A stretch of 37,645 bases of DNA, from NCBI GenBank assembly GCA_016790475.1, contig JAEUOX010000434.1:1-37645 (forward strand), written 5' to 3'. The notes under the pieces are model-generated. The model was not told the origin of the DNA. It did not search any database and saw only the letters and a program-made list of their open reading frames with translations. The stretch comes from Rhodoferax sp. Its GTDB lineage: Bacteria; Pseudomonadota; Gammaproteobacteria; Burkholderiales; Burkholderiaceae_C. The position numbers were made by a program, and so were the translations under genes. Below, one piece after another: positions 5,913-23,862 of the stretch (position 1 is the first letter of the stretch; each line of letters begins with the position of its first letter).

Positions 5913-6305
5913 ATGGCCAAGTACCAGTTCCGCGTAGAGGTGGTTCCCCGTTATCTGCCCGACCAGTCGGCCCCTGCCCAGGGGCACTATGTGTTCGCCT
6001 ACACCATCACGATCACGAACACCGGGGACGTGGCGGCCCAGCTGATCTCCCGCACCTGGAACGTGAACGATGCCCAGGGACACACCGAGAAGGTCAAGGG
6101 CCTGGGCGTCGTGGGGCACCAGCCGCTGCTGCAGCCTGGCGAGAAGTTCGAGTACACCAGCGGTACCCGGCTGCGCACGCCTACCGGCACGATGCACGGC
6201 AGCTACTTCTGCGTGGCCGAGGATGGCGAGAAGTTCGAGACCGACATCCCGATGTTCGTGCTCGACGCACTCAGCGAAGACGGCGGCGCCCGCACGCTGC
6301 ACTGA
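5913..6305 (+). CDS. apaG: ApaG protein
   Basis: ApaG is a small beta-sandwich protein (fibronectin-III-like fold) found across Proteobacteria; mutants are known for altered cobalt resistance and magnesium efflux, and its molecular role is unsettled. The 130-residue product has the usual length. Hallmarks are [20 protein letters not shown], the WNVNDAQGH segment and [19 protein letters not shown]. This order, beginning with the strand-rich VEVVPRYLP, fits the whole domain. It is divergent from rpe, a pairing common in Burkholderiales, and is followed 16 bases later by the Gcr-type gene on the same strand. Confidence 0.96.
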
Positions 6306-6321
6306 GCCCGGCCTCCGCCCG

Positions 6322-8304
6322 ATGCGCGACCTGCCGGCGCTGCTGAGCTCCCTGGATCCGGCCGCCAGCCGGGTCGAGCGCCACCTGTGGCTGATGGACC
6401 TGCTGCGCTGGATCCGCGGGCCGCAACCCGCGGTGGACGGTGCGCTGGCACGCTTGCGGCTGCTGCTCGACGCACTGCAGGCGGCCCCGCACCACGCGAT
6501 GCGTCTGCGCCAGTGCTGGCAGGCGTTGCACCAGGAGCTGGACATCGCGGTGCTGCTGGCGGAGTACGGCTTCTCGTCCCGGCACGCATTCGTCAGCGAG
6601 TTTGCCGAACGGCTGCGCCAGCGCCTGCTGCCGGCCACTCCGGACACCGCCGACGCCGCCGAGCTGTTTTCGCTGGTGCTGGACGACCCGATCGACGCGC
6701 AGTGGCTGGCCGCGCTGGATGCCGATCTGCTGGCGCGCATCGCGGCCGCCCTCGCTCCCGGGGAGCCGGAAGCCCCCGGCGCCGCCTGGCAGGACAGCGT
6801 GCTGGAGGCGATCACGATCTGCACGAGCCAGGTCCGGGCCAACGGCTTTGCGCCGGAGCTGCGGCTGCGCATGAGCAGCCAGGCGCGCCAGACCGCACCG
6901 TTCCACGCGCTCGCCGCCGACGCGGACGCGCTGCAAGCCAGCCAGCACGCCAACAGCGCCGGCCGCGAGGCCGCGCTGCAGCAGTTCCGCGCCCGGCTGG
7001 AGGCCTGCCGCGGCGCCGTGGCGTCGGTCTACGCGCATCTGGACGAGCACGGCATCTCGGTCGGCCTGGTGTTCCGCATCCGCCAGGTACGCGAGCGCAT
7101 CCTGCGCATCCGCGCGCTGATCGACTGCCTGCAGGAGCCGGCGCCCGGCGTGGCCGCCGCGCGGCTGCTGGCACAGATGGCGGCGCTGCGCCAGGACCGG
7201 CGCAGCCTGCGGGCCCTGATCGCGTCCAACTCCTCGATGCTAGCCGCCAAGGTCACCGAGCGCAGCTCGGAGGTCGGCGAGCACTACATCACGCGCGACC
7301 GCGCTGCCTACCGGACGATGCTGCGCCAGGCCGCTGGCGGCGGCGCGCTGACCGGCCTGACGACGCTGATGAAGTTCGGCGTGATGGCGCTGGGCCTGTC
7401 GGCCTTCTGGAACGGATTCTGGTCGGGTGTGGTGTATGCGGGCAGCTTCGTGCTGATCCAGCTGCTGCACTGGACGCTGGCCACCAAGCAGCCCGCCATG
7501 ACCGCCCCGGCGATGGCCGCCAAGCTGAAGGACCTGGATGCACCGGACGCGTTGACCAGCTTCGTGGACGAGGTCACCCACCTGGTGCGCTCGCAGGCCG
7601 CGGCGGTGCTGGGCAATGTCGGCATCGTGGTGCCGGTGGTCGTTGTGCTGTGCCTGCTGCTGCAGGCGCTCACCGGTCGGCCGCTGCTGGACGCGCAGGG
7701 CACCGCCTACGTGCTGCATTCGCTGACACTGGCCGGCCCGAGCGCGCTGTTCGCGGCCATCACCGGCGTGCTGCTGTTCGCATCCAGCATCATCGCCGGC
7801 TGGGTGGAGAACTGGTTCGTGTTCAACCGGCTGGACTCCGCGCTGCGCTACAACCCGGCCTTCACGCGCCGCCTTGGTGCGGCGCGTGCCGACCGCTGGG
7901 CCCGCTTCCTGCGCCAGAACATCTCCGGCTTTGCGGCCAACATCTCGCTGGGCTTCCTTCTGGGGCTGGTGCCGGCCTTCGCCGGCTTCCTGGGCCTCGG
8001 TCTGGAGCTGCGGCACGTCACGCTGTCGGCCGGGCAGCTGGCCGCCGCCGGGGCCTCGATCGGCTGGAGCGTGCTGCGCGAGCCGGCGCTGTGGTGGTGC
8101 GTGGCCAGCATTCCGGTGATCGGCGTGCTGAACATCAGCGTGAGCTTCTACTGCGCGTTCCGGTTGGCCCTGCTGTCCCACAACGTCGGCGCACTCGACC
8201 GCTCCCGCATCCGCCAGGCGATCTGGCAGCGGCTGCGCCAGCGTCCGCTGGATTTCCTGTGGCCGGTCCGCGAGGCCGCGGCGCCTGCATCGACCCGGGC
8301 CTGA
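6322..8304 (+). CDS. Gcr-family membrane protein ('site-specific recombinase')
   Basis: A 660-residue protein of the family called site-specific recombinase Gcr after a neisserial gene. The first half is soluble and helical, rich in Ala, Leu and Arg. The second half carries five or so hydrophobic segments, at about residues 340-390, 426-450, 466-500, 538-565 and 588-620, for example VGIVVPVVVVLCLLLQ and SLGFLLGLVPAFAGFLGL. I see no tyrosine- or serine-recombinase motif, so the family name should be read with care; a membrane role looks more likely. The ATG at 6322 gives MRDLPALLSSLDP. The frame is open further upstream, but that part overlaps apaG and is not convincing. It is followed five bases later by thiL on the same strand. 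Confidence 0.85.
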   Translation: MRDLPALLSSLDPAASRVERHLWLMDLLRWIRGPQPAVDGALARLRLLLDALQAAPHHAMRLRQCWQALHQELDIAVLLAEYGFSSRHAFVSEFAERLRQRLLPATPDTADAAELFSLVLDDPIDAQWLAALDADLLARIAAALAPGEPEAPGAAWQDSVLEAITICTSQVRANGFAPELRLRMSSQARQTAPFHALAADADALQASQHANSAGREAALQQFRARLEACRGAVASVYAHLDEHGISVGLVFRIRQVRERILRIRALIDCLQEPAPGVAAARLLAQMAALRQDRRSLRALIASNSSMLAAKVTERSSEVGEHYITRDRAAYRTMLRQAAGGGALTGLTTLMKFGVMALGLSAFWNGFWSGVVYAGSFVLIQLLHWTLATKQPAMTAPAMAAKLKDLDAPDALTSFVDEVTHLVRSQAAAVLGNVGIVVPVVVVLCLLLQALTGRPLLDAQGTAYVLHSLTLAGPSALFAAITGVLLFASSIIAGWVENWFVFNRLDSALRYNPAFTRRLGAARADRWARFLRQNISGFAANISLGFLLGLVPAFAGFLGLGLELRHVTLSAGQLAAAGASIGWSVLREPALWWCVASIPVIGVLNISVSFYCAFRLALLSHNVGALDRSRIRQAIWQRLRQRPLDFLWPVREAAAPASTRA

Positions 8305-15101: not shown

Positions 15102-16769
15102 ATGTTCCACACGCTGAACCAGTGGTACCCGATCCGCTACACCGTCTTCGGCCTGTGCGTGCTCAGCCTGGCGGCGGCCCTGCTGCAATGGGTCCAGGCC
15201 GGCGTCGGACTGCCCTGGGTGCTGCTGGCGCTGGCGCTGGTCGCGGTGGGCGTGCACGACGTGGTGCAGGCGCGCCGCTCGATCCTGCGCAACTACCCGG
15301 TCATCGGGCATCTGCGCTTCATGCTGGAGTACGTGCGCCCGGAGATCCGGCAGTACTTCCTGGAGAACGACACCGAGGCCATGCCGTTCTCGCGCGCGCA
15401 GCGCTCGCTGGTCTACCAGCGCGCCAAGGGCGACTCCGACAAGCGGCCCTTCGGCACCCAGCTCGACGTGCATGCGCAGGGCTACGAGTGGATGAACCAC
15501 TCGATGGTGCCCACCATGGTGGCCTCGCACGATTTCCGCGTCTGGATTGGCGGCACGCCGGACACGGTGGCGCTGCTCGGCGAGGACACCGACCAGTGCA
15601 CGCAGCCCTACCACGCCAGCGTGTTCAACATCTCGGCGATGAGCTTCGGCTCGCTCAGCGCCAACGCGATCAAGTCCCTGAATGCCGGTGCGCGCAAGGG
15701 TGGCTTCGCCCACGATACCGGCGAGGGCTCGATCTCGGTGCACCACCGTGCGCACGGCGGCGACCTGATCTGGGAGATCGGCTCGGGCTACTTTGGCTGC
15801 CGCAACGAGGACGGCAGCTTCAACGCGGAGCGCTTTGCCGAGAACGCGCGGGACCCGCAGGTGAAGATGGTCGAGATCAAGCTCAGCCAGGGCGCCAAGC
15901 CGGGCCATGGCGGCGTGCTGCCGGGCCCGAAGGTCACGCCGGAGATCGCTGCGGCGCGCGGCGTGCCAGTCGGTGTCGACTGCATCTCGCCGGCCGCCCA
16001 CAGCGCTTTCGGCACGCCGCTGGAGATGATGCACTTCATCGTGCGCCTGCGCCGGCTCTCCGGCGGCAAGCCGGTGGGGTTCAAGCTGTGCATCGGCCAC
16101 CCGTGGGAATGGTTCGCGATCGTCAAGGCGATGCTGGCCACCGGCATCACGCCGGACTTCATCGTCGTGGACGGTGCGGAGGGCGGCACCGGCGCGGCAC
16201 CGCTGGAGTTCACGAACCATGTCGGCTCGCCATTGCAGGAGGGCCTGCTGCTGGTGCACAACACGCTGCGTGGCGTGGGCCTGCGCAACCGCATCCGGAT
16301 CGGCTGCGCCGGCAAGGTCGTCAGCGCCTTCGACATCGCGCGGATGATGGCGCTGGGCGCCGACTGGTGCAACAGCGCGCGCGGCTTCATGTTCGCGCTG
16401 GGCTGCCTGCAGGCCCAGAACTGCCATACCGGCGAATGCCCGACCGGCGTGGCCACGCAGGATCCGCTGCGCCAGCAGTCACTGGTGGTGGCCGACAAGA
16501 CGCAGCGCGTGTACAGCTTTCACCACCTGACGCTGCACGCGCTGAAGGAGCTGGTGCAGGCCGCCGGCCTGACGCACCCGTCGGACATCACCGCGCACCA
16601 CATCGTGCGCCGCACCAGCGACCAGAAGGTGAAGTCGCTCGCGCAGTCGATCCTGACGCAACTGCCCGACGGCGCGTTGCTGCAGCCCGACCTGCGCGGC
16701 CTGCCGCTGATCTACCAGCAGTCCTGGCCGCAGGCCAGCGCGCAGAGTTTCCAGCTGCAGCCGGTCTGA
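15102..16769 (+). CDS. Membrane-anchored FMN-binding glutamate-synthase-like protein
   Basis: A 555-residue protein that joins an N-terminal membrane region (two hydrophobic stretches at about residues 15-55) to the FMN/iron-sulfur barrel found in the middle of GltB. Visible parts: FNISAMSFGSLSANAIKSLN (about residue 175), the HDTGEGSIS motif, KPGHGGVLPGPKV, GVDCISP, IVVDGAEGGTGAAPLEF and the cluster cysteines in CHTGECPTGVATQDP (about residues 443-450). The amidotransferase domain and the GltD partner of a true glutamate synthase are absent, so the electron donor and substrate are unknown; relatives are usually only called FMN-binding glutamate synthase family. A strong site, GGAGG, is at 15089-15093. 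It converges with nanK, 17 bases apart. Confidence 0.9.
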   Translation: MFHTLNQWYPIRYTVFGLCVLSLAAALLQWVQAGVGLPWVLLALALVAVGVHDVVQARRSILRNYPVIGHLRFMLEYVRPEIRQYFLENDTEAMPFSRAQRSLVYQRAKGDSDKRPFGTQLDVHAQGYEWMNHSMVPTMVASHDFRVWIGGTPDTVALLGEDTDQCTQPYHASVFNISAMSFGSLSANAIKSLNAGARKGGFAHDTGEGSISVHHRAHGGDLIWEIGSGYFGCRNEDGSFNAERFAENARDPQVKMVEIKLSQGAKPGHGGVLPGPKVTPEIAAARGVPVGVDCISPAAHSAFGTPLEMMHFIVRLRRLSGGKPVGFKLCIGHPWEWFAIVKAMLATGITPDFIVVDGAEGGTGAAPLEFTNHVGSPLQEGLLLVHNTLRGVGLRNRIRIGCAGKVVSAFDIARMMALGADWCNSARGFMFALGCLQAQNCHTGECPTGVATQDPLRQQSLVVADKTQRVYSFHHLTLHALKELVQAAGLTHPSDITAHHIVRRTSDQKVKSLAQSILTQLPDGALLQPDLRGLPLIYQQSWPQASAQSFQLQPV

Positions 16770-16786: not shown

Positions 16787-17680
16787 TCAGTCGCTGGCGT
16801 CCGGCCGGTCCTGCAGCCAGCAGGCCATGCCGCGCAAACCCGCGTCGGGTCCCAGACGCGCCGCGTCGACGGGGACCCGGAATCGCGCCGGCAGCGCCAG
16901 CATGGCCCGCTGGACCCCCTGCAGGAAGCGCGGGTGCAAGCCCAGCCCACCGCCCAGCAGCACGCCGTGCAGATCCAGCAATGCATGGGCATCCGCGATC
17001 GCCTCCGCCACGGCACGGGTCGCCCGGTCGAGCCAGTCCTGCACGGCCGGATGGTCCTGATGCGGCGCAGCCATCCAGGCACGTGCGGAGCGCAGGCCCA
17101 GCCCCAGCGCAGCCAGATCGCGAGCCATGGCGCTGCCGGACGCGCGCCACTCCAGGCAGTCTCCGCGCCCGCAACTGCAGGCGCTCCCCGGCGCCTGGCC
17201 CCCGCCGGCCGCCCGTGCACCGCCATGACCGAGATGACCGGCCAGGCCGGTGGAGCCACTGCGCAGGCGTCCGTCCAGAACGATGCCGGCCCCGATGCCG
17301 GTGGACACGGTGACGAACAGGAGGTCTGCCGGCGCATCCGCACGCGCGCGATACTCACCCCAGGCGGCAGCCTGCGCGTCGTTGAGCAGCCACGCGGGAA
17401 CGCCCAGCAGCTGCTCCAGGTGCTCCGCCAATGGCAGACCGTCCCAGCCGCCGATCATCTGGCGGTTGAGCACACCGACCCGCCGGCCATCGGTGACACC
17501 GGTGACGGCGGCGCCCACGCACTGCACCGGCGGCCCGCCTGACAGCATCCTCGCCAGCTGCTCCAGCAAGGCCGGTGCATCCCCGGCCGTCGGTTCTTCG
17601 CGCCGCTGCAGCAGCAACCCGCCCTGCCACCAGGCGGCGGCGGTCTTGGTGCCGCCGATGTCCAGCGTCAGACAGTCCAT
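16787..17680 (-). CDS. nanK: N-acetylmannosamine kinase (ROK family)
   Basis: NanK phosphorylates N-acetylmannosamine with ATP to ManNAc-6-P. The 297-residue product starts with the phosphate-loop motif DIGGTKTAAAWW and continues with LNDAQAAAWGE (catalytic Asp), TVSTGIGAGIVLDG and the family's zinc site, GHLGHG followed by CSCGRGDCLEW (about residues 155-180). ROK kinases are related to each other, so the substrate is taken from context: the start codon directly follows the nanE stop with no base between. NanK is the last gene of the TRAP-nan run. A different N-acyl-hexosamine is also possible, given the altered residues in the transporter and aldolase of this locus. Confidence 0.87.
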   Translation of the reverse strand: MDCLTLDIGGTKTAAAWWQGGLLLQRREEPTAGDAPALLEQLARMLSGGPPVQCVGAAVTGVTDGRRVGVLNRQMIGGWDGLPLAEHLEQLLGVPAWLLNDAQAAAWGEYRARADAPADLLFVTVSTGIGAGIVLDGRLRSGSTGLAGHLGHGGARAAGGGQAPGSACSCGRGDCLEWRASGSAMARDLAALGLGLRSARAWMAAPHQDHPAVQDWLDRATRAVAEAIADAHALLDLHGVLLGGGLGLHPRFLQGVQRAMLALPARFRVPVDAARLGPDAGLRGMACWLQDRPDASD

Positions 17681-18364
17681 CTAGCGAGGGCGCAGGGCCT
17701 GCACGAACCACTGCGTGATGTGTTCGACGCGGGTGATGGCGGAACCGATCGTCACGCACAAGGCGCCACTGTCGAGTGCTTCGGCAGCCTGCTGCGGCGT
17801 GCGGATGCGGCCTTCGGCCACGACCCGCACCCCCTGCAGGGCCAGCGCACGGATCAGGCCGAAGTCGGGCGGTGCATCTTCCGCCACCGCCGTGTCGGCG
17901 GTATAGCCGCTCAGGGTAGTACCCACCAGTTCGCAACCGGCCTGCCAGGCCTGCAGTCCGTCGGCCAGGGTGGCGCAATCAGCCATGGCACCCACGCCGC
18001 AGGCATGCGCGGCATCCGCAAGCGCCGGCACGGTGCTCGGGCGCGTTCGCTGCGTGGCATCGAAGGCGACGACGGCTGCGCCCGCCGCGGCCAGCGCCCG
18101 GACATCCTCGGCGACCGGCGTGATGAACACCGGAGAACCGGGAACCGGGCGCTTGACAATGCCCACCACCGGGATGGCCAGGCTGCGCGCCACGAGCGCC
18201 ACCCGCTGCACACCTTCGATCCGCACGGCGCTGGCGCCGGAGGCCGCCGCAGCCTGCGCCATCGCCAGCACGATGTCGTCCCGGTCCAGCGGTCCGGCCA
18301 CGACAGGTTGGCACGACACGATCAGGCCGCGGGACCAGACGCCTTCCCAGTCGCTCGTGCGCAT
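17681..18364 (-). CDS. nanE: N-acetylmannosamine-6-phosphate 2-epimerase
   Basis: NanE converts ManNAc-6-P to GlcNAc-6-P, which then enters amino-sugar metabolism. The 227-residue product has the family length and its main motifs: GLIVSCQPV near the N terminus, RIEGVQRVALVARSLAIPV, VVAFDATQRTRP, MADCATLADG, GTTLSGYTADTA (about residues 145-156) and VAEGRIRTPQQAAEALDSGA. The fold is a TIM barrel, and these motifs form its phosphate site and catalytic lysine or glutamate set. It lies five bases after the aldolase and its stop touches the nanK start. The pair nanE-nanK is the strongest sign that the locus handles a nonulosonic acid. Confidence 0.94.
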   Translation of the reverse strand: MRTSDWEGVWSRGLIVSCQPVVAGPLDRDDIVLAMAQAAAASGASAVRIEGVQRVALVARSLAIPVVGIVKRPVPGSPVFITPVAEDVRALAAAGAAVVAFDATQRTRPSTVPALADAAHACGVGAMADCATLADGLQAWQAGCELVGTTLSGYTADTAVAEDAPPDFGLIRALALQGVRVVAEGRIRTPQQAAEALDSGALCVTIGSAITRVEHITQWFVQALRPR

Positions 18365-18369
18365 GCGTC

Positions 18370-19299
18370 TCAGGCAGCCAGCAGGCCGTGCGCGACGAGG
18401 TGCTGACGCACCCGTTCCACGGCAGCCGGTGGCAGCGGGCGATTGGGCCGGGCCATGTGGTGGCTGCGCGCCAGGCCCATCAGCTTCAGCGCCGTCTTGA
18501 AGCTGCCCACGCCGGAGGCGCCGGCACTCAGGTCCTGCGCCGCAAAGAACACCATCTGGAACAGGCTGATCAGGCGCTCCTGCTCGGCGCGTGCCTCGGA
18601 CCACCGGCCCGCACGGGCATGGTCATACAGGCGCACATAGCCCCGCGGATCCACGTTCGCCAGGCCGGGCACGATGCCGTGGGCGCCACCCAGCAGGGCC
18701 GCATCGCAGACGATCTCGGAGCCGGTGAAAAGTGCGAAGTCCGGCAGGTCCGCCAAATCCCGCAGCAGCATGCGGAAGTTGCCTTCGTCGCCGCTGCTGT
18801 CCTTCAGGGCCACCACGACGTTTTCGCGGGCCAGCGTGTTCACCGTGTCCCGCGCCAGCTTGATGTTGACACACACCGGGATGTCGTAGGCGATGACCGG
18901 CAGATCGACCGCGTCGCGCACGTAGCGGAAATGGTCCTGCGTCTCGGCCTGGTTGGTACGGGTGTAGTACGGCGCCGTCAGCACCAGCGCCTGTGCGCCC
19001 AGTGCGCGCGCCTGGCGGCCGTGGGCGATGCAGTGGTCGGTGGTGGCATCCATCACGCCGGCCACCACCGGCACGCGGCCCTGCGCAACCTCCACCGCGA
19101 TGCGGACCACTTCCGCACGCTGGGCGGCCGTCAGGAACACGCACTCGCTGGTGGACCCCAGCACGAACAGCCCATGCACGCCACCGTCCAGCAGGTGGCG
19201 CAGCACCCGGCGCAGGCTGTCCGGATCGATCTGCCCTTGCGGGTCGTACGGCGTGGCAACCGGCGGGACGATGCCGTGCAGGTGAAGCGGTGGAGTCAT
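18370..19299 (-). CDS. NanA/DapA-family aldolase of the nonulosonate-type locus
   Basis: A 309-residue class I aldolase-fold protein. The expected role is cleavage of a sialic-acid-like sugar to an N-acyl-mannosamine and pyruvate. The Schiff-base lysine is in VVALKDSSGD (about residue 168), the catalytic tyrosine in VIAYDIPV and the carboxylate site in LGSTSECVF (NanA has GSTGE). By my alignment from memory with E. coli NanA, the glycerol-reading residues Asp191, Glu192 and Ser208 look replaced by Glu, Ile and Gly. The DapA-typical arginine after the tyrosine is absent, so it is unlikely to be a dihydrodipicolinate synthase. I chose the ATG at 19299 (MTPPLHLHG); a TTG three codons earlier is possible. 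It follows the TRAP large subunit by 15 bases. I leave the symbol empty because the substrate is unproven. Confidence 0.82.
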   Translation of the reverse strand: MTPPLHLHGIVPPVATPYDPQGQIDPDSLRRVLRHLLDGGVHGLFVLGSTSECVFLTAAQRAEVVRIAVEVAQGRVPVVAGVMDATTDHCIAHGRQARALGAQALVLTAPYYTRTNQAETQDHFRYVRDAVDLPVIAYDIPVCVNIKLARDTVNTLARENVVVALKDSSGDEGNFRMLLRDLADLPDFALFTGSEIVCDAALLGGAHGIVPGLANVDPRGYVRLYDHARAGRWSEARAEQERLISLFQMVFFAAQDLSAGASGVGSFKTALKLMGLARSHHMARPNRPLPPAAVERVRQHLVAHGLLAA

Positions 19300-19314
19300 G
19301 GGAGTCAAGGAAGG

Positions 19315-20592
19315 TCAGGACATGAACAACTGGGGCAGCGCTGTCACGATGGGTGGGTACAGGATCATCGCCAGCAGCACCAGGACAAGGGGAATGAGCC
19401 AGGGCATCGTGGCACGGATCAGTCGATGCATCTCGACGCCATGGCTCTTGGAAACGACGAACAGGATCATGCCCATCGGCGGCGTGAGCGTACCGATCAT
19501 CAGCGTGAAGATGATCACGACGCCGAAGTAGACCGGATCGATCTGCATGGCCTGGGCCAGCGGAATGAACGAGGGCACCAGCACCAGCAGCAGCGCCAGT
19601 ACCTCGATGAAGCAGCCCAGGATCAGCAACAGCGCGCACACGGCGAAGACGAACTCCGTCGGCGTGCTGGCCACCGACATCAGCAGACCCGCGATCTGCT
19701 CCGGCGCCTTCTCACGTGCCATCACGATCCCCATCATCGACACGCCGCCGATGATCAGCGCGATCGTGGAGGACATCACGGCGGTCTCGTAGATCGCGTC
19801 CCAGAGCTTGCGCCAGGTGAGCTCGCGGTAGAACAGCAGATCGATCAGGATCGCGTAGAGCACCGTGACCGCCGCCGCCTCGGTGGGCGAGAACACGCCG
19901 CTGAAGATGCCGCCGATGATGACCACGGGTGTCATCAGGGCCGGGAACGATCGGATGAAGGTGCCGCGGACCTCTGCCATCGTGGCGCGCGGATGGACCG
20001 GCAACTGCACCCGACCGGCAACGATGTACAGCATGACCATCATGGCCAGCGTGCACAGCACACCCGGCACGATGCCCCCGAGAAACAGGCCGCCGATCGA
20101 CGCGCCCGACACGACGCCGTACACGACCATCGGGATGCTCGGCGGCACCAGCGGCCCCAGGATGGAGGAGACCGCGGTCAGCGCCGCAGCCAGGTCGTGC
20201 GGATACCCGGCCTTCTGCATCGCCTCGGCTTCGATCTTGCCCAGGCCACCCGCGTCGGCCACCGCGGAACCGGACATGCCGGAGAAGAACAGGCTGGCCA
20301 GGATGTTCACATGGCCCAGCCCGCCGCGGACATGCCCGACCAGCGCGGTCGCGAAGCCGAACAGGTTGCGCGTGATGCTCGATGAATTGAAGATGCTGGC
20401 GGCCAGGATGAACAGTGGCACCGCGATGATCGGAAAGCTGTTGAGTCCGTCCACCACGCGCTGCGCGGCGAAGTTGATGCCGATGCCGGTGTACAGGAAG
20501 TAGCCGATCGAGACCACGAACATGGCCACGGCGATCGGGATGCCGATGAAGATCAGCAGCATCCAGGTGCCGATGAACACCAGGAAGGTCAT
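19315..20592 (-). CDS. TRAP transporter large membrane subunit (SiaM/DctM type)
   Basis: The 425-residue membrane subunit of a tripartite ATP-independent periplasmic (TRAP) transporter, driven by a sodium or proton gradient. It has a dozen or so hydrophobic helices and the family motifs VPLFILAASIFNSSS, FSGMSGSAVADAGGLGKI (about residues 93-110), PPSIPMVVYGV and FSPTEAAAVTVLYA, followed by TLTPPMGMILFVV near residue 370. The ATG overlaps the stop of the small subunit by four bases (ATGA), which is usual for this pair. It works with the small subunit and the binding protein upstream. The gene is followed by the aldolase in the same run. Confidence 0.94.
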   Translation of the reverse strand: MTFLVFIGTWMLLIFIGIPIAVAMFVVSIGYFLYTGIGINFAAQRVVDGLNSFPIIAVPLFILAASIFNSSSITRNLFGFATALVGHVRGGLGHVNILASLFFSGMSGSAVADAGGLGKIEAEAMQKAGYPHDLAAALTAVSSILGPLVPPSIPMVVYGVVSGASIGGLFLGGIVPGVLCTLAMMVMLYIVAGRVQLPVHPRATMAEVRGTFIRSFPALMTPVVIIGGIFSGVFSPTEAAAVTVLYAILIDLLFYRELTWRKLWDAIYETAVMSSTIALIIGGVSMMGIVMAREKAPEQIAGLLMSVASTPTEFVFAVCALLLILGCFIEVLALLLVLVPSFIPLAQAMQIDPVYFGVVIIFTLMIGTLTPPMGMILFVVSKSHGVEMHRLIRATMPWLIPLVLVLLAMILYPPIVTALPQLFMS

Positions 20593-21059
20593 GCCGGCTC
20601 CCCTAACGGGGGCTGTCGGCGGCCCGCCACCCGCAGGAACAGCCGCAGCGCCCACAGCACGGCACCCACCGGGAGCGCCGCGTACAGCACCGCATCGGAC
20701 ATGTACAGCGTGACGGACTCGTCGTTCCAGGTGCGCAGAACGCCCTTGCCACCCAGCCAGGCCATGTAGAGCGCGAGCACGCCGGTGCCGGCGTCGATCA
20801 CGGCATACACGGCCCGCCGCAGACGGGCGGTCCACAGCGCAGGCAGCATTTCCATGCGCAGGTGCTGCTGCATCCGCTCGGCCTCCGCCACGCCCAGCAT
20901 CGCCAGCCAGACCCAGATCCAGCGGATCAGTTCCTCGGTCCAGACCTGTCCGGCGAGGAACCCGAGCCGGCTGGCGATCTGGAACAGGATCAGCGCCATC
21001 ATCAGCGCCAGCAGCGCAGCGCTGACGATGCCCTCCGCGGAATAGCGACCCGGCGTCAT
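20589..21059 (-). CDS. TRAP transporter small membrane subunit (SiaQ/DctQ type)
   Basis: A 156-residue, four-helix inner-membrane protein of the DctQ family. The helices are about residues 12-35, 40-58, 80-102 and 120-142. The family motif is VWTEELIRWIWVWLAMLGVAEA, giving the ARxxHLR-like EAERMQQHLRMEML region. The small subunit is needed for the large one to fold and work. A GAGGGAG site precedes the ATG at 21059; the start is 25 bases after the binding-protein stop, and its stop overlaps the large-subunit start. The small and large subunits are separate here, whereas in some sialic acid TRAP systems they are fused. Confidence 0.9.
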   Translation of the reverse strand: MTPGRYSAEGIVSAALLALMMALILFQIASRLGFLAGQVWTEELIRWIWVWLAMLGVAEAERMQQHLRMEMLPALWTARLRRAVYAVIDAGTGVLALYMAWLGGKGVLRTWNDESVTLYMSDAVLYAALPVGAVLWALRLFLRVAGRRQPPLGEPA

Positions 21060-21084
21060 GGAAGGCTCCCTCGCTGGCACTGGT

Positions 21085-22050
21085 TCACCTGGTCGCCATG
21101 ATGCGCTGGATCTCTCCGGCGCCGAGCTCGGCCTCGAGCGTGTCGTAGTAGGGCTTCATCGCGGCACGGAACGGCGCCGTGTCCACCGTGGTCACGCCCA
21201 GGCCCTTGGACTTGAAGAAGGCCACGAGCTCGGCCTCGCGGGCCATCACGCCGGCCGTGGCGACCTTGCCGCCGGCGACGATCGCGTCCTCCAGCCACTG
21301 CTTCTGCTGCGGGTTGAGCTTCTTGAGCGCCTTGTCGCCCACCAGGATCGCCGAGCTGGCGATGAAGTGGCCGGTCAGCGCGATGTGCTTCTGCACCTCG
21401 TAGACCTTGGTGGCCTCGATGGTGGGCAACGGGTTCTCCTGGGCATCCACCTGCTTGGTCTGCAGCGCCAGGTAGAGCTCGGCGAAGGCGACCGGCGCCG
21501 GCGTGGCACCCACCGCACTGGCGTAGGCAATCAGGAAGGGCACGTTGGGCGTGCGCATCTTCAGGCCCTTCAGGTCGGCCATCGAGTTGATCGGCTTGTT
21601 GGCGGTGGTGTGGCGGGTGCCTTCGTACCAGACGTCCATCAGGTGCATGCCCTTCTCGCGGAACTTGGCATCCATGCGCTGCCCGTAGGGGCCCTTCACG
21701 ACGGCCTTCAGATGGTCGTAGCTGGAGACCACGTAGGGCGCACCGATCAGCTTGAGCTCGGGAATGATGTAGCTCATGTCCGGGTAGCCGGTCATCGCGA
21801 TATCCAGATCGCCCGCCTGCGCCTGGCCCACCATGGCCTTGAAGTCGCCCAGCTGCGCGCCAGGGAAGGTCTTGATGCTCATGCTGCCCTTGGAGTTCTC
21901 CTCCAGCTTGCGCTTGACCTCCAGGATGCCCTTGTAGACCACATGGGTCTCGGGCAGCTGGGTGCCGAAGCTCAGCGTCAGCGTCTGCGCCATGGCTGAC
22001 ACGGAAGCGCACAGCGTCAATCCGGCAGCGAGTGATTTCCACAGTTTCAT
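21085..22050 (-). CDS. TRAP transporter substrate-binding protein (SiaP type)
   Basis: A 321-residue periplasmic binding protein with signal peptide MKLWKSLAAGLTLCASVSAM, cut after AQ. It resembles Haemophilus influenzae SiaP: YEGTRHTTANKPINSMADLK, KMRTPNVPFLIAYA, AFAELYLALQT and DAQENPL occur in the same order. The residues I recall as binding the sialic acid carboxylate and neighbours (Arg127, Arg147, Asn150, Phe170, Asn187 of the mature protein) are present. Those reading the other side of the sugar (Asn10, Asp49, Glu67) appear replaced. The region TQLPETHVV and QLGDFKAM shows this. The alignment was done by eye and needs checking. A GAGGAG site precedes the ATG at 22050. It follows the regulator by 41 bases. 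Confidence 0.92.
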   Translation of the reverse strand: MKLWKSLAAGLTLCASVSAMAQTLTLSFGTQLPETHVVYKGILEVKRKLEENSKGSMSIKTFPGAQLGDFKAMVGQAQAGDLDIAMTGYPDMSYIIPELKLIGAPYVVSSYDHLKAVVKGPYGQRMDAKFREKGMHLMDVWYEGTRHTTANKPINSMADLKGLKMRTPNVPFLIAYASAVGATPAPVAFAELYLALQTKQVDAQENPLPTIEATKVYEVQKHIALTGHFIASSAILVGDKALKKLNPQQKQWLEDAIVAGGKVATAGVMAREAELVAFFKSKGLGVTTVDTAPFRAAMKPYYDTLEAELGAGEIQRIMATR

Positions 22051-22091
22051 CGGGTGTCTCCTCAAGTTGGAAAGGGCCTACGGGTGCGGGG

Positions 22092-22832
22092 TCACGGGGA
22101 TAGGGAAGACGGGTCCGCCAGCACCTCTTCGGGCGGACCATCGGTGTCCAGGGAACGCAGCCGCCTGGAGATCTCGTCGAAATGCTGGCGATGGGCCTGC
22201 TCCAGCGCCTGCACATCACCGGACTCCAGCATGTCGACCACCCGCAGGTGGTCCAGCGCGGTGGCGCGTTGCGCCGCCTGATCGGGCGCAGGCAGGCGGT
22301 CGGCCAGGCGGGTGAATACCTGCCAGAACAGGTCCACCAGGCTCAGCAGGAAGGCGTTTCCCAGGCAGCGGAACAGTGCTGCATGGAACGCACGGTCCTC
22401 CTCGGCGAAGCTCTCGCCGCGCTCGCTGCGCTCGAGCATGCGCCGCGCCAGCTGGCGCAGCGCGGCCACGTCCGCCGGGCCGACGCGCTGCGCGATCTGC
22501 GCCACCATGCCGACCTCCAGCGCGGCGCGCACCTCGAGCAGTTCGCGCAGGCTGGCGCCCTGCGCGGCAATGGAGTAGGGCAGGTTGTGGACGATCGGGT
22601 CGAATGAGAAGTGCGCCACGAACACGCCTTCGCCATGCCGGGTGCGGATGATGCCCAGGGATTCGAGCGCCTTGAGGCCCTCGCGCAGCGAGGCGCGGGA
22701 CATGCCCAGTTCCTGGCACAACGTGGCCTCCGAGGGCAGCGGGTCACCACCCGCCAGCCGGTGCGCCTCGATGTAGCGCTTCACTTCGGTGGCGGCGAGC
22801 TTGTAGGCAGGCTGACGGCTGGAAGTCTTCAC
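22092..22832 (-). CDS. GntR-family regulator of the FadR/FCD type
   Basis: A 246-residue transcription factor with an N-terminal winged helix (about residues 10-75: LPSEATLCQELGMSRASLRE, LGIIRTRHGEGVFVA) and a C-terminal FCD ligand domain (about 90-225). Likely metal or ligand residues of FCD are seen in EEDRAFHAALF, LDHLRVVDMLESGD and AHRQHFDEI. The ligand may be a sugar of the pathway, such as a sialic acid or an N-acyl-mannosamine derivative. It is the first gene of the minus-strand run and ends 41 bases before the transporter gene, so it would also control itself. A candidate operator at 22865-22873 lies in the divergent promoter. Confidence 0.93.
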   Translation of the reverse strand: MKTSSRQPAYKLAATEVKRYIEAHRLAGGDPLPSEATLCQELGMSRASLREGLKALESLGIIRTRHGEGVFVAHFSFDPIVHNLPYSIAAQGASLRELLEVRAALEVGMVAQIAQRVGPADVAALRQLARRMLERSERGESFAEEDRAFHAALFRCLGNAFLLSLVDLFWQVFTRLADRLPAPDQAAQRATALDHLRVVDMLESGDVQALEQAHRQHFDEISRRLRSLDTDGPPEEVLADPSSLSP

Positions 22833-22935: not shown

Positions 22936-23862
22936 ATGACCGCACCTGCACTCGACCTGCCGCGTGGCCTGTGGGGCACCATCCTGCTGCCGGTCGACGC
23001 CCGCGACCAGATCGATTGGTCCGCCCTGTCCGACGAGCTGGACCTGCTGGTGCACAGCGGACTGCACGGCATCTACGCCAACGGAACCGCCGGTGAGTTC
23101 CACAACCAGACCGACGCCGAGTACGAACGCCTGGTCGATCTGGTGGCCCGCAAGGCACGGGGCGCCGGCATGCCGTTCCAGATCGGCGTATCGTGCACGA
23201 ACGCCCGCGTGGCACGGGAGCGCCTGCGTGCGCTGCGGGATGTGCGGCCGTCCGCAGCGCAGTTCATCCTGCCGGACTGGTGGGCGCCCTCGCAGCCCGA
23301 GCTGCACGCCTTCCTGGCCGGCATGCAGGAGGTCGCCTGCGGCATTCCCCTGGTGCTGTACAACCCACCCCAATCCAAGCTGCGCCTGGATCTGGACCAG
23401 ATCGCGGCGTTGCGGGCCCAGTACCCGCTGCTGGTGGGGGCCAAGCTGCCGGGTGGCGATGCCGGATGGTATGCCCGGCGCCGTGCACTGTTGCCCGGCT
23501 TCTCGGTCTTTGTACCCGGGCACACGGTCGCATTTGGTCGGCCGCTGGGCGCCGACGGCGCGTATTCGAACGTGGCCTGCCTCGGGCCGCGTGGCGCGCT
23601 GCTGCACTGGCAGCTGAGTGCAGAGTCTCCCGAGCGCGCGGGCGAGCTGGAGAGCCGCATCCAGCAGTTCATGGCCCGGTACGTGCTGCCGCTCGTGCAG
23701 ACCCACGGACTGGCCCATCCCGCCCTGGACAAGATGATGGCCGAAGTGGGCGCCTGGGGTCCGGTGCGCGCACGGATGTTGTGGCCGCATGCCAGCGCTC
23801 CCGATGCCGCCATTCGGGACGCCCGCGCGGCCTTGCGCGACATGCTGCCGGAGTTTTGCTGA
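22936..23862 (+). CDS. Second DapA-family aldolase/lyase, divergent from the regulator
   Basis: A 308-residue class I aldolase-fold protein distinct from the one at 18370-19299. The Schiff-base lysine is in LVGAKLPGGD (about residue 178), the tyrosine in PLVLYNPPQSK and the oxyanion loop in IYANGTAGEFHNQ. It also has the unusual DWWAPSQPELHAF segment. The similarity to NanA and DapA is limited to the fold and catalytic residues, so it is probably a separate branch. It may act on another keto-acid sugar or on a side product. A strong AGGAGG site is at 22925-22930. It converges with the PIN gene two bases away. The divergent regulator gene and shared promoter gap tie it to the same pathway. Confidence 0.82.
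   Translation: MTAPALDLPRGLWGTILLPVDARDQIDWSALSDELDLLVHSGLHGIYANGTAGEFHNQTDAEYERLVDLVARKARGAGMPFQIGVSCTNARVARERLRALRDVRPSAAQFILPDWWAPSQPELHAFLAGMQEVACGIPLVLYNPPQSKLRLDLDQIAALRAQYPLLVGAKLPGGDAGWYARRRALLPGFSVFVPGHTVAFGRPLGADGAYSNVACLGPRGALLHWQLSAESPERAGELESRIQQFMARYVLPLVQTHGLAHPALDKMMAEVGAWGPVRARMLWPHASAPDAAIRDARAALRDMLPEFC

Follow-up and report, generated by a model that had tools for sequence, protein, structure and literature searches.

Among the described systems of sialic acid use, those closest to the locus presented here are the Escherichia coli nan operon (nanR-nanA-nanT-nanE-nanK-nanQ), the SiaPQM transporters of the tripartite ATP-independent periplasmic (TRAP) type, and the N-acetylneuraminate lyase of Corynebacterium glutamicum (CgNal), an enzyme without the Asp191, Glu192 and Ser208 residues of E. 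coli NanA which yet cleaves N-acetylneuraminic acid (Neu5Ac), and which also has dihydrodipicolinate synthase (DHDPS) activity (PMC5380162). The stretch of DNA analyzed (37,645 nucleotides, hereafter the window) is one entire contig (JAEUOX010000434.1; G000:C363) of a Rhodoferax sp. draft genome of 4.77 Mb, 517 contigs and 89.8% completeness, and carries on its minus strand (16787..22832) a run of seven genes for a regulator, a TRAP transporter, an aldolase and two sugar enzymes. Judged from sequence, this run is probably an operon for the uptake and breakdown of sialic acid, with a rare SiaP-like TRAP subtype. The pathway is a known one and the SiaP-like subtype is new to the literature searched (open papers), in which we found neither a description of the subtype nor a paper linking TRAP transport of sialic acid to the Alphaproteobacteria or the Comamonadaceae.

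Gene content of the run and of related loci

The run begins with a GntR/FCD regulator gene with a GTG start (22092..22832; PF00392 and PF07729 over cut-off), followed by genes for a DctP-type TRAP substrate-binding protein of a rare SiaP-like subtype (21085..22050; PF03480, 249 bits), the small permease DctQ (20589..21080; PF04290, 78 bits), the SiaM-like large permease DctM (19315..20592; PF06808, 348 bits), a DHDPS-family aldolase with a TTG start and an ATG three codons downstream (18370..19308; nearest to PDB 5c54), the N-acetylmannosamine 6-phosphate (ManNAc-6-P) 2-epimerase NanE (17681..18364; PF04131, 224.5 bits against a cut-off of 27) and a ROK kinase, probably the N-acetylmannosamine (ManNAc) kinase NanK (16787..17680; PF00480, 164 bits), all on the minus strand. 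As the best Pfam E-values of the run genes lie between 7.7e-22 and 9.1e-104, this gene content is not a matter of chance, and Pfam and NCBIfam bear out the genes and coordinates given for the run in a preliminary description of the same DNA.

Several lines of evidence argue for a sialic acid operon: NanE is over its model cut-off (NCBIfam NF002231, 268 bits; cut-off 189), the binding protein is nearest to SiaPs and the permease to sialic acid TRAP permeases, relatives pair the subtype with NanE, NanK-type, NagA, NanM, NagB-II or nagB genes, and the replaced residues of the aldolase resemble those of the Neu5Ac-cleaving C. glutamicum lyase. DctM scored 408 bits against 7qha_B, which we take to be Photobacterium profundum SiaM, compared to 223 bits against an isethionate DctMQ permease. 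Its Glu330 aligns with Glu329 of P. profundum SiaM (column counted by hand). An acidic residue at this position is reported for all sialic acid TRAPs surveyed in PMC9971032; since the isethionate permease has Glu in the same column, Glu330 does not discriminate.

Matches to the window binding protein were rare, being found at E <= 1e-60 in 2 of 200 genomes of the family (its own and genome G163, the latter with two copies), at E <= 1e-75 in 1 of 398 genomes of the phylum, the window's own, and at E <= 1e-70 in none of the 385 genomes from the class to which genome G245 (see below) belongs, a search run without a positive control. Of 252 plasmid records with matches at E <= 1e-40, two stand out with 61% and 57% identity; among the other matches listed, at most 60 taken at intervals along the ranking, identity does not exceed 42%. 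G163 locus A (L014) encodes NanM (PF24996, 346 bits), GntR, binding protein, Q, M, a window-type aldolase, NanE, NanK and a NagA truncated where the contig ends. Locus B, spanning two contigs presumed to be linked (L015 and L043), encodes GntR, binding protein, Q, M, aldolase, NanE, NanK, NagA (247.6 bits; cut-off 225.65) and a SIS protein closest to NagB-II (224 of 430 bits). This draft genome appears to hold two near-complete copies of the operon, one with NanM and one with the NagB-II-like SIS protein.

In the Rhodobacterales, a Qingshengfaniella plasmid (L022) encodes a NanA-type lyase with a GFDE motif (248 of 281 bits, below the NanA cut-offs), a regulator, binding protein, Q, M, NanE and a ROK protein, and a Limimaricola plasmid (L023) has a similar run with one additional regulator gene, with nagB and nagA a few genes further; its NanA-type lyase is likewise below cut-off (255 of 281 bits). 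Both lyases retain the GxDE motif of E. coli NanA, and the binding protein subtype thus occurs beside two lyase types that share about 20-25% identity. In all five loci, window included, it is accompanied by NanE and a NanK-type gene. Of the relatives' four loci, three have nagA, one of these together with nagB and another with NagB-II (the presumed contig link enters into both counts).

The preliminary description had suggested a different acidic sugar, perhaps a modified nonulosonic acid. An acidic sugar of another kind altogether is unlikely, since NanE and NanK-type genes, and in some relatives also nagA, nagB or NagB-II and nanM, stand for ManNAc and N-acetylglucosamine 6-phosphate (GlcNAc-6-P) chemistry; what may be left of that suggestion is a ManNAc-yielding sialic acid modified in its glycerol tail, which is weighed with the binding protein below. 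Another nonulosonic acid, such as 3-deoxy-D-glycero-D-galacto-nonulosonic acid (KDN), legionaminic acid or pseudaminic acid, is improbable. The rebuilt tail pocket of the binding protein would suit such a ligand, as several bacterial nonulosonates differ at C7-C9. However, the steps of NanK and NanE require a free 6-hydroxyl on ManNAc, equivalent to O9 of sialic acid, which 9-deoxy nonulosonates lack, and KDN yields mannose, for which neither NanE nor NagA is required, so that, with the enzymes acting as named, 9-deoxy nonulosonates and KDN fit poorly. The nagA, nagB and NagB-II genes of the relatives speak against them as well, and the gene context favours a sialic acid that releases ManNAc over a 9-deoxy nonulosonate.

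A SiaP-like binding protein with replaced pocket residues

The closest solved relatives of the window binding protein are SiaPs, far above other DctP proteins: the 22 top PDB rows scored 195-244 bits and the following row 143 bits. Seventeen of the 22 are named as sialic acid or N-acetylneuraminate binding proteins, and the five named otherwise are presumably SiaPs too. Residues were compared in an alignment of 15 proteins, including the window protein, using Haemophilus influenzae SiaP numbering. Arg127, Arg147 and Asn187, described before as retained, are indeed present (R146, R166 and N206 of the precursor), though not specific: as four binding proteins adjoining aldonate-type genes have all three and PMC4646407 describes the Arg147 equivalent as common to DctP proteins in general, their retention tells little about the ligand. 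SiaP residues Asn150, Phe170, Glu186 and His209 are also retained.

Replacements were found at five further positions, namely Asp49 to Phe70 (codon 21841..21843), Glu67 to Gly88 and Arg70 to Asp91 (the ends of the codons for Gly88 to Asp91, 21778..21789) and the hinge-2 pair Asn212-Asp213 to Ala231-Ser232 (21355..21360), all on the minus strand. The changes at 49, 67 and 70 fall within one gap-free block of the alignment to Vibrio cholerae SiaP, and the hinge changes in the next block, separated by a single one-residue gap. The previously claimed loss of Asp49 and Glu67 therefore stands, and Arg70 and the hinge pair are further changes missing from that account. The claimed loss of Asn10, which is replaced by Gln, is confirmed as well but has no diagnostic value: V. 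cholerae SiaP likewise has Gln at this position, and section 3.2 of PMC4089482 describes the H. influenzae Asn10 contact as not seen in the Fusobacterium nucleatum and Pasteurella multocida proteins, for which reasons Asn10 was dropped as a marker. Because Asp49, Glu67 and Arg70 are replaced, we filed the protein as a SiaP-like subtype and not as a standard SiaP.

At positions 49/67/70/212/213, the V. cholerae, Cetobacterium, P. multocida and Fusobacterium proteins (4/4) have Asp/Glu/Arg/Asn/Asp, and all five members of the subtype (window, the two G163 copies, Qingshengfaniella and Limimaricola) have Phe/Gly/Asp/Ala/Ser, a set found in none of the ten other aligned proteins. The Sinorhizobium meliloti protein has Phe/Pro/Gly/Gln/Asp and one from Azospirillum brasilense Asp/Asp/Arg/Leu/Ile. 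Since the five-residue change is conserved in four close relatives, it is not a sequencing error. In a tree of 14 of the 15 rows, the long-branched A. brasilense row (Abras_L053) having upset a first topology and been left out, the five subtype proteins are set apart from the rest by a branch with 91/89 support, a grouping which is suggestive, not strong.

A transporter importing an aldonate or another sugar acid, with the nan-like genes adjacent by chance, is highly improbable. Such a reading could draw on the four binding proteins beside idonate, mannonate or gluconolactonase-type genes, in which Arg127, Arg147 and Asn187 are retained, but these proteins have Glu/Gly/Phe at 49/67/70 (4/4) instead of Phe/Gly/Asp and form a separate tree group (support 100/100), and chance adjacency is at odds with the constant company of NanE and NanK-type genes. 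In PLSDB, binding proteins annotated as 'sialic acid SiaP' (L050, L051, L052 and L054) adjoin idonate, mannonate or gluconolactonase-type genes, the name being too widely spread. Annotation names were dropped as evidence, PLSDB attaching 'SiaP' to aldonate-linked proteins.

Published structures place the changed residues at the tail end of the ligand. Asp50 of F. nucleatum SiaP, at the Asp49 position, contacts O7 of Neu5Ac, and distances of the hinge asparagine are given to a water and to Glu67 (PMC4089482); in P. profundum SiaP, conserved acidic residues lie at hydrogen-bonding distance from the glycerol tail (PMC9971032, section 8). The joint change of Glu67 and Asn212 in all five proteins fits the rebuilding of one network, and with the pocket rebuilt in domain I and at hinge 2 and the carboxylate end kept, the glycerol tail is probably packed differently. 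Predicted structures were too poor for a fold search (pLDDT, the predicted local distance difference test, 36 for the binding protein from a two-sequence alignment).

These same contacts, and the fact that all five residues changed together in each of the five members, also fit a special case of the sialic acid operon in which the subtype has become adapted to a sialic acid with a change in its glycerol tail or close to it, such as 2,7-anhydro-Neu5Ac with its O7 tied up or a 7/8-O-substituted form, which would be converted to Neu5Ac or ManNAc after uptake. We regard this as an unlikely, though not negligible, case. Genes of the Gfo/Idh type, presumably the family of YjhC/NanOx kind, are not named near the two plasmid loci in the (incomplete) PLSDB gene tables and were not seen among the scanned window frames, and the NanM of one relative is in keeping with unmodified Neu5Ac.

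The aldolase, the second DHDPS-family protein and the missing steps

The aldolase scored 242.6 bits against PDB 5c54, which we take to be CgNal, compared to 156 bits for the next different protein, and no other chain bearing the name N-acetylneuraminate lyase exceeded 109.6 bits; it shares 44% identity with 5c54 and 26% with NanA of E. coli. In an alignment of 13 rows, including the window protein, the catalytic tyrosine (Tyr141) and the Schiff-base lysine (Lys169) are retained, and Asp191, Glu192 and Ser208 of E. coli NanA correspond to Glu198, Ile199 and Gly215 (Glu/Thr/Gly in the C. glutamicum enzyme, for which PMC5380162 puts Val212, not Gly, against Ser208). The residue changes noted in the preliminary description are thus confirmed by alignment, but they were dropped as an independent sign of a new substrate, as the C. 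glutamicum Neu5Ac lyase loses the same residues. The broader proposal of that description, that both proteins keep the acid end of the substrate and differ at the other end, holds for the binding protein, with conservation in four relatives, and at best weakly for the aldolase, which is a weak second sign because the C. glutamicum lyase shares the loss and the same binding protein subtype also pairs with a GxDE lyase.

Neither Asp191, Glu192 and Ser208 nor the NanA model scores of an E. coli-type lyase were found in the aldolase; of the C. glutamicum type, it has the Lys, the Tyr and 5c54 as closest structure and lacks the GXXGE motif. As GSTSE replaces GXXGE, a motif of the superfamily, it would work like the C. 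glutamicum type at most and is no plain member. GSTSE, Tyr-Asp and Ile are common to the aldolases of the window, G163, Rhizobium N324 and Phyllobacterium (GSTSE and Tyr-Asp in 4 of the 13 rows), a GSTSE plus Tyr-Asp clade represented by window 18370-19308, L014, L027 and L029.

A number of observations weigh against a sialic acid operon. The aldolase is under both NanA model cut-offs (114 of 382 and 123 of 281 bits), and differs from the C. glutamicum enzyme in the GXXGE motif (GSTSE compared to GSSGE; intact in E. coli too), in the residue after the catalytic Tyr (Asp compared to Asn) and at the Glu192 position (Ile compared to Thr). Neu5Ac is a weak substrate of the C. glutamicum lyase itself, which turns it over at 44 per second (kcat, pH 8.5) with a Km of 33.5 mM at pH 7.5 and 87.7 mM at pH 8.5, about ten times that of other lyases (PMC5380162). 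For the regulator, the top-scoring NCBIfam model is NanR, at 96 bits and under the 260-bit cut-off, and the kinase, although reaching the ROK family, is under both NCBIfam ManNAc kinase cut-offs (218.6 of 283 and 205 of 450 bits). No nagA was found in the window's genome, an 89.8% complete draft (best match 20.4 bits; cut-off 225.65). Homologues of the aldolase, 54-57% identical where compared, stand in rhizobial ATP-binding cassette (ABC) transporter operons, and the binding protein of one of these operons has a closer match (149 bits) than 5yyb and kin (101 bits), which we take to be the sialic acid binder SatA. Furthermore, NanE was not found in genomes G245 and G450, both of which have the window-type aldolase and the second DHDPS-family protein described next.

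A second DHDPS-family protein, absent from the preliminary description, is encoded divergently from the regulator, 103 bases away, as a possible accessory gene (22936..23862, plus strand; PF00701, 56.6 bits). It retains Tyr142 and Lys170, and its single-sequence structure prediction (pLDDT 50) was likewise too poor for a fold search. Homologues of this protein adjoin the window-type aldolase in the rhizobial ABC-transporter operons. Among 398 genomes of the phylum, it was found in four (E <= 1e-40) and the window-type aldolase in five (E <= 1e-60); all four are among the five which, window aside, belong to one family. The G163 stretches showed no copy of the second DHDPS-family protein. NanE is over cut-off in two of four searched genomes of the former family, strong only in G308, where it lies on another contig than the aldolase, the G462 match being marginal and partial. 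The rhizobial operon (L027 1755-9903; L045; L046) comprises a FadR-type regulator, an oligopeptide-type ABC transporter and both DHDPS types of the window. The FadR-type regulators of L046 and L045 have 39.7-40.2% identity to the window regulator, and no match to NanE or NanK was found in the L045 and L046 stretches. The second DHDPS-family protein may be an accessory enzyme of the use of sialic acid or of a related keto acid. There is a small chance, to be put forward tentatively, that the SiaP-like clade is tuned to a sialic acid that occurs in nature in modified form or with an internal bridge, stemming from the environment or from bacteria, with the GSTSE lyase and the second DHDPS-family protein as adapted or unassigned enzymes of that route.

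Pfam was applied to eight window frames, to three of five proteins and to a further 20 frames, i.e. to part of all frames, and among these no sialidase, nagA or nagB family was found, in line with the earlier statement that the window has none. That account had also proposed looking for nagA and nagB elsewhere in the genome: nagA was not found over cut-off, as given above, whereas a NagB-like protein is present on contig C47 (PF01182, 73 bits; best NCBIfam model glucosamine 6-phosphate deaminase, 151 of 326 bits). Its reading as a 6-phosphogluconolactonase was rejected (that model 64 of 124 bits, all being below cut-off), and the weak nagA match was read as another amidohydrolase. Searches for the BNR_2 sialidase, the one sialidase family looked for, gave no match in either of two genomes (G000 and G163). 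In a draft about 90% complete, the absences of nagA and BNR_2 are weak evidence.

The contig also carries housekeeping genes (a sigma-54 factor, arginyl-tRNA synthetase and an anthranilate/chorismate-binding enzyme by Pfam), so the locus is probably chromosomal. Elsewhere in the window, a large protein (6070-8304, plus strand) matches SpecificRecomb (PF10136, 737 bits), the family name denoting a site-specific recombinase, and a glutamate synthase-like protein (15120-16769, plus strand; PF01645, 273 bits) has a frame stopping 17 bases short of the end of the convergent ROK kinase gene.

Proposed pathway and comparison with known systems

From gene content, residues, conservation and the neighbourhoods of the relatives, we infer transport and each enzymatic step as follows. 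The SiaP-like TRAP transporter would import a sialic acid of the Neu5Ac class, with Neu5Ac somewhat more likely than not as its main ligand, the C. glutamicum-like lyase would split it into pyruvate and ManNAc, NanK would phosphorylate ManNAc at O6, and NanE would convert ManNAc-6-P to GlcNAc-6-P. De-acetylation would require the nagA not found in the draft genome, and the candidate for deamination is the NagB-like protein on the other contig. If the subtype binds Neu5Ac, the usual SiaP recognition residues are not the sole solution to its recognition, and a SiaP without them is no ground for counting a genome among the non-users of sialic acid; binding of a modified sialic acid would mean a new class of TRAP ligand in free-living bacteria. 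In either case, the signature Phe49, Gly67, Asp70, Ala212 and Ser213 allows easy recognition of the subtype.

Compared to the E. coli nan operon, the window run shares NanE, a NanK-type kinase, a DHDPS-superfamily lyase and a GntR-family regulator, but has a TRAP transporter in place of NanT and a lyase only distantly related to NanA, and NanQ is absent from its seven genes. An S. meliloti run (L024) combines nanR (312.7 bits; cut-off 260), TRAP genes, a 51% homologue of the second DHDPS-family protein and nanA (376.9 bits; cut-off 281). It resembles the window in this homologue and in a SiaP-like binding protein with Phe at 49, and differs in the Pro/Gly/Gln/Asp of that protein at 67/70/212/213 and in its E. 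coli-type NanA, with nanE and nanK absent among the annotated genes of the stretch. CgNal and the window aldolase have the catalytic Tyr and Lys in common, and both read Gly-Ser-Glu and Pro-Gly where the E. coli enzyme has its sugar-recognition residues, whereas GSTSE, Tyr-Asp and the Ile at the Glu192 position set the window enzyme apart. Finally, the SiaPQM systems of V. cholerae, H. influenzae, P. profundum and F. nucleatum provide the best PDB matches of the window P and M proteins, and Q and M are separate proteins in the window, as in P. profundum; the window binding protein is distinguished from the known SiaPs by the consistent replacement of positions 49, 67, 70, 212 and 213.

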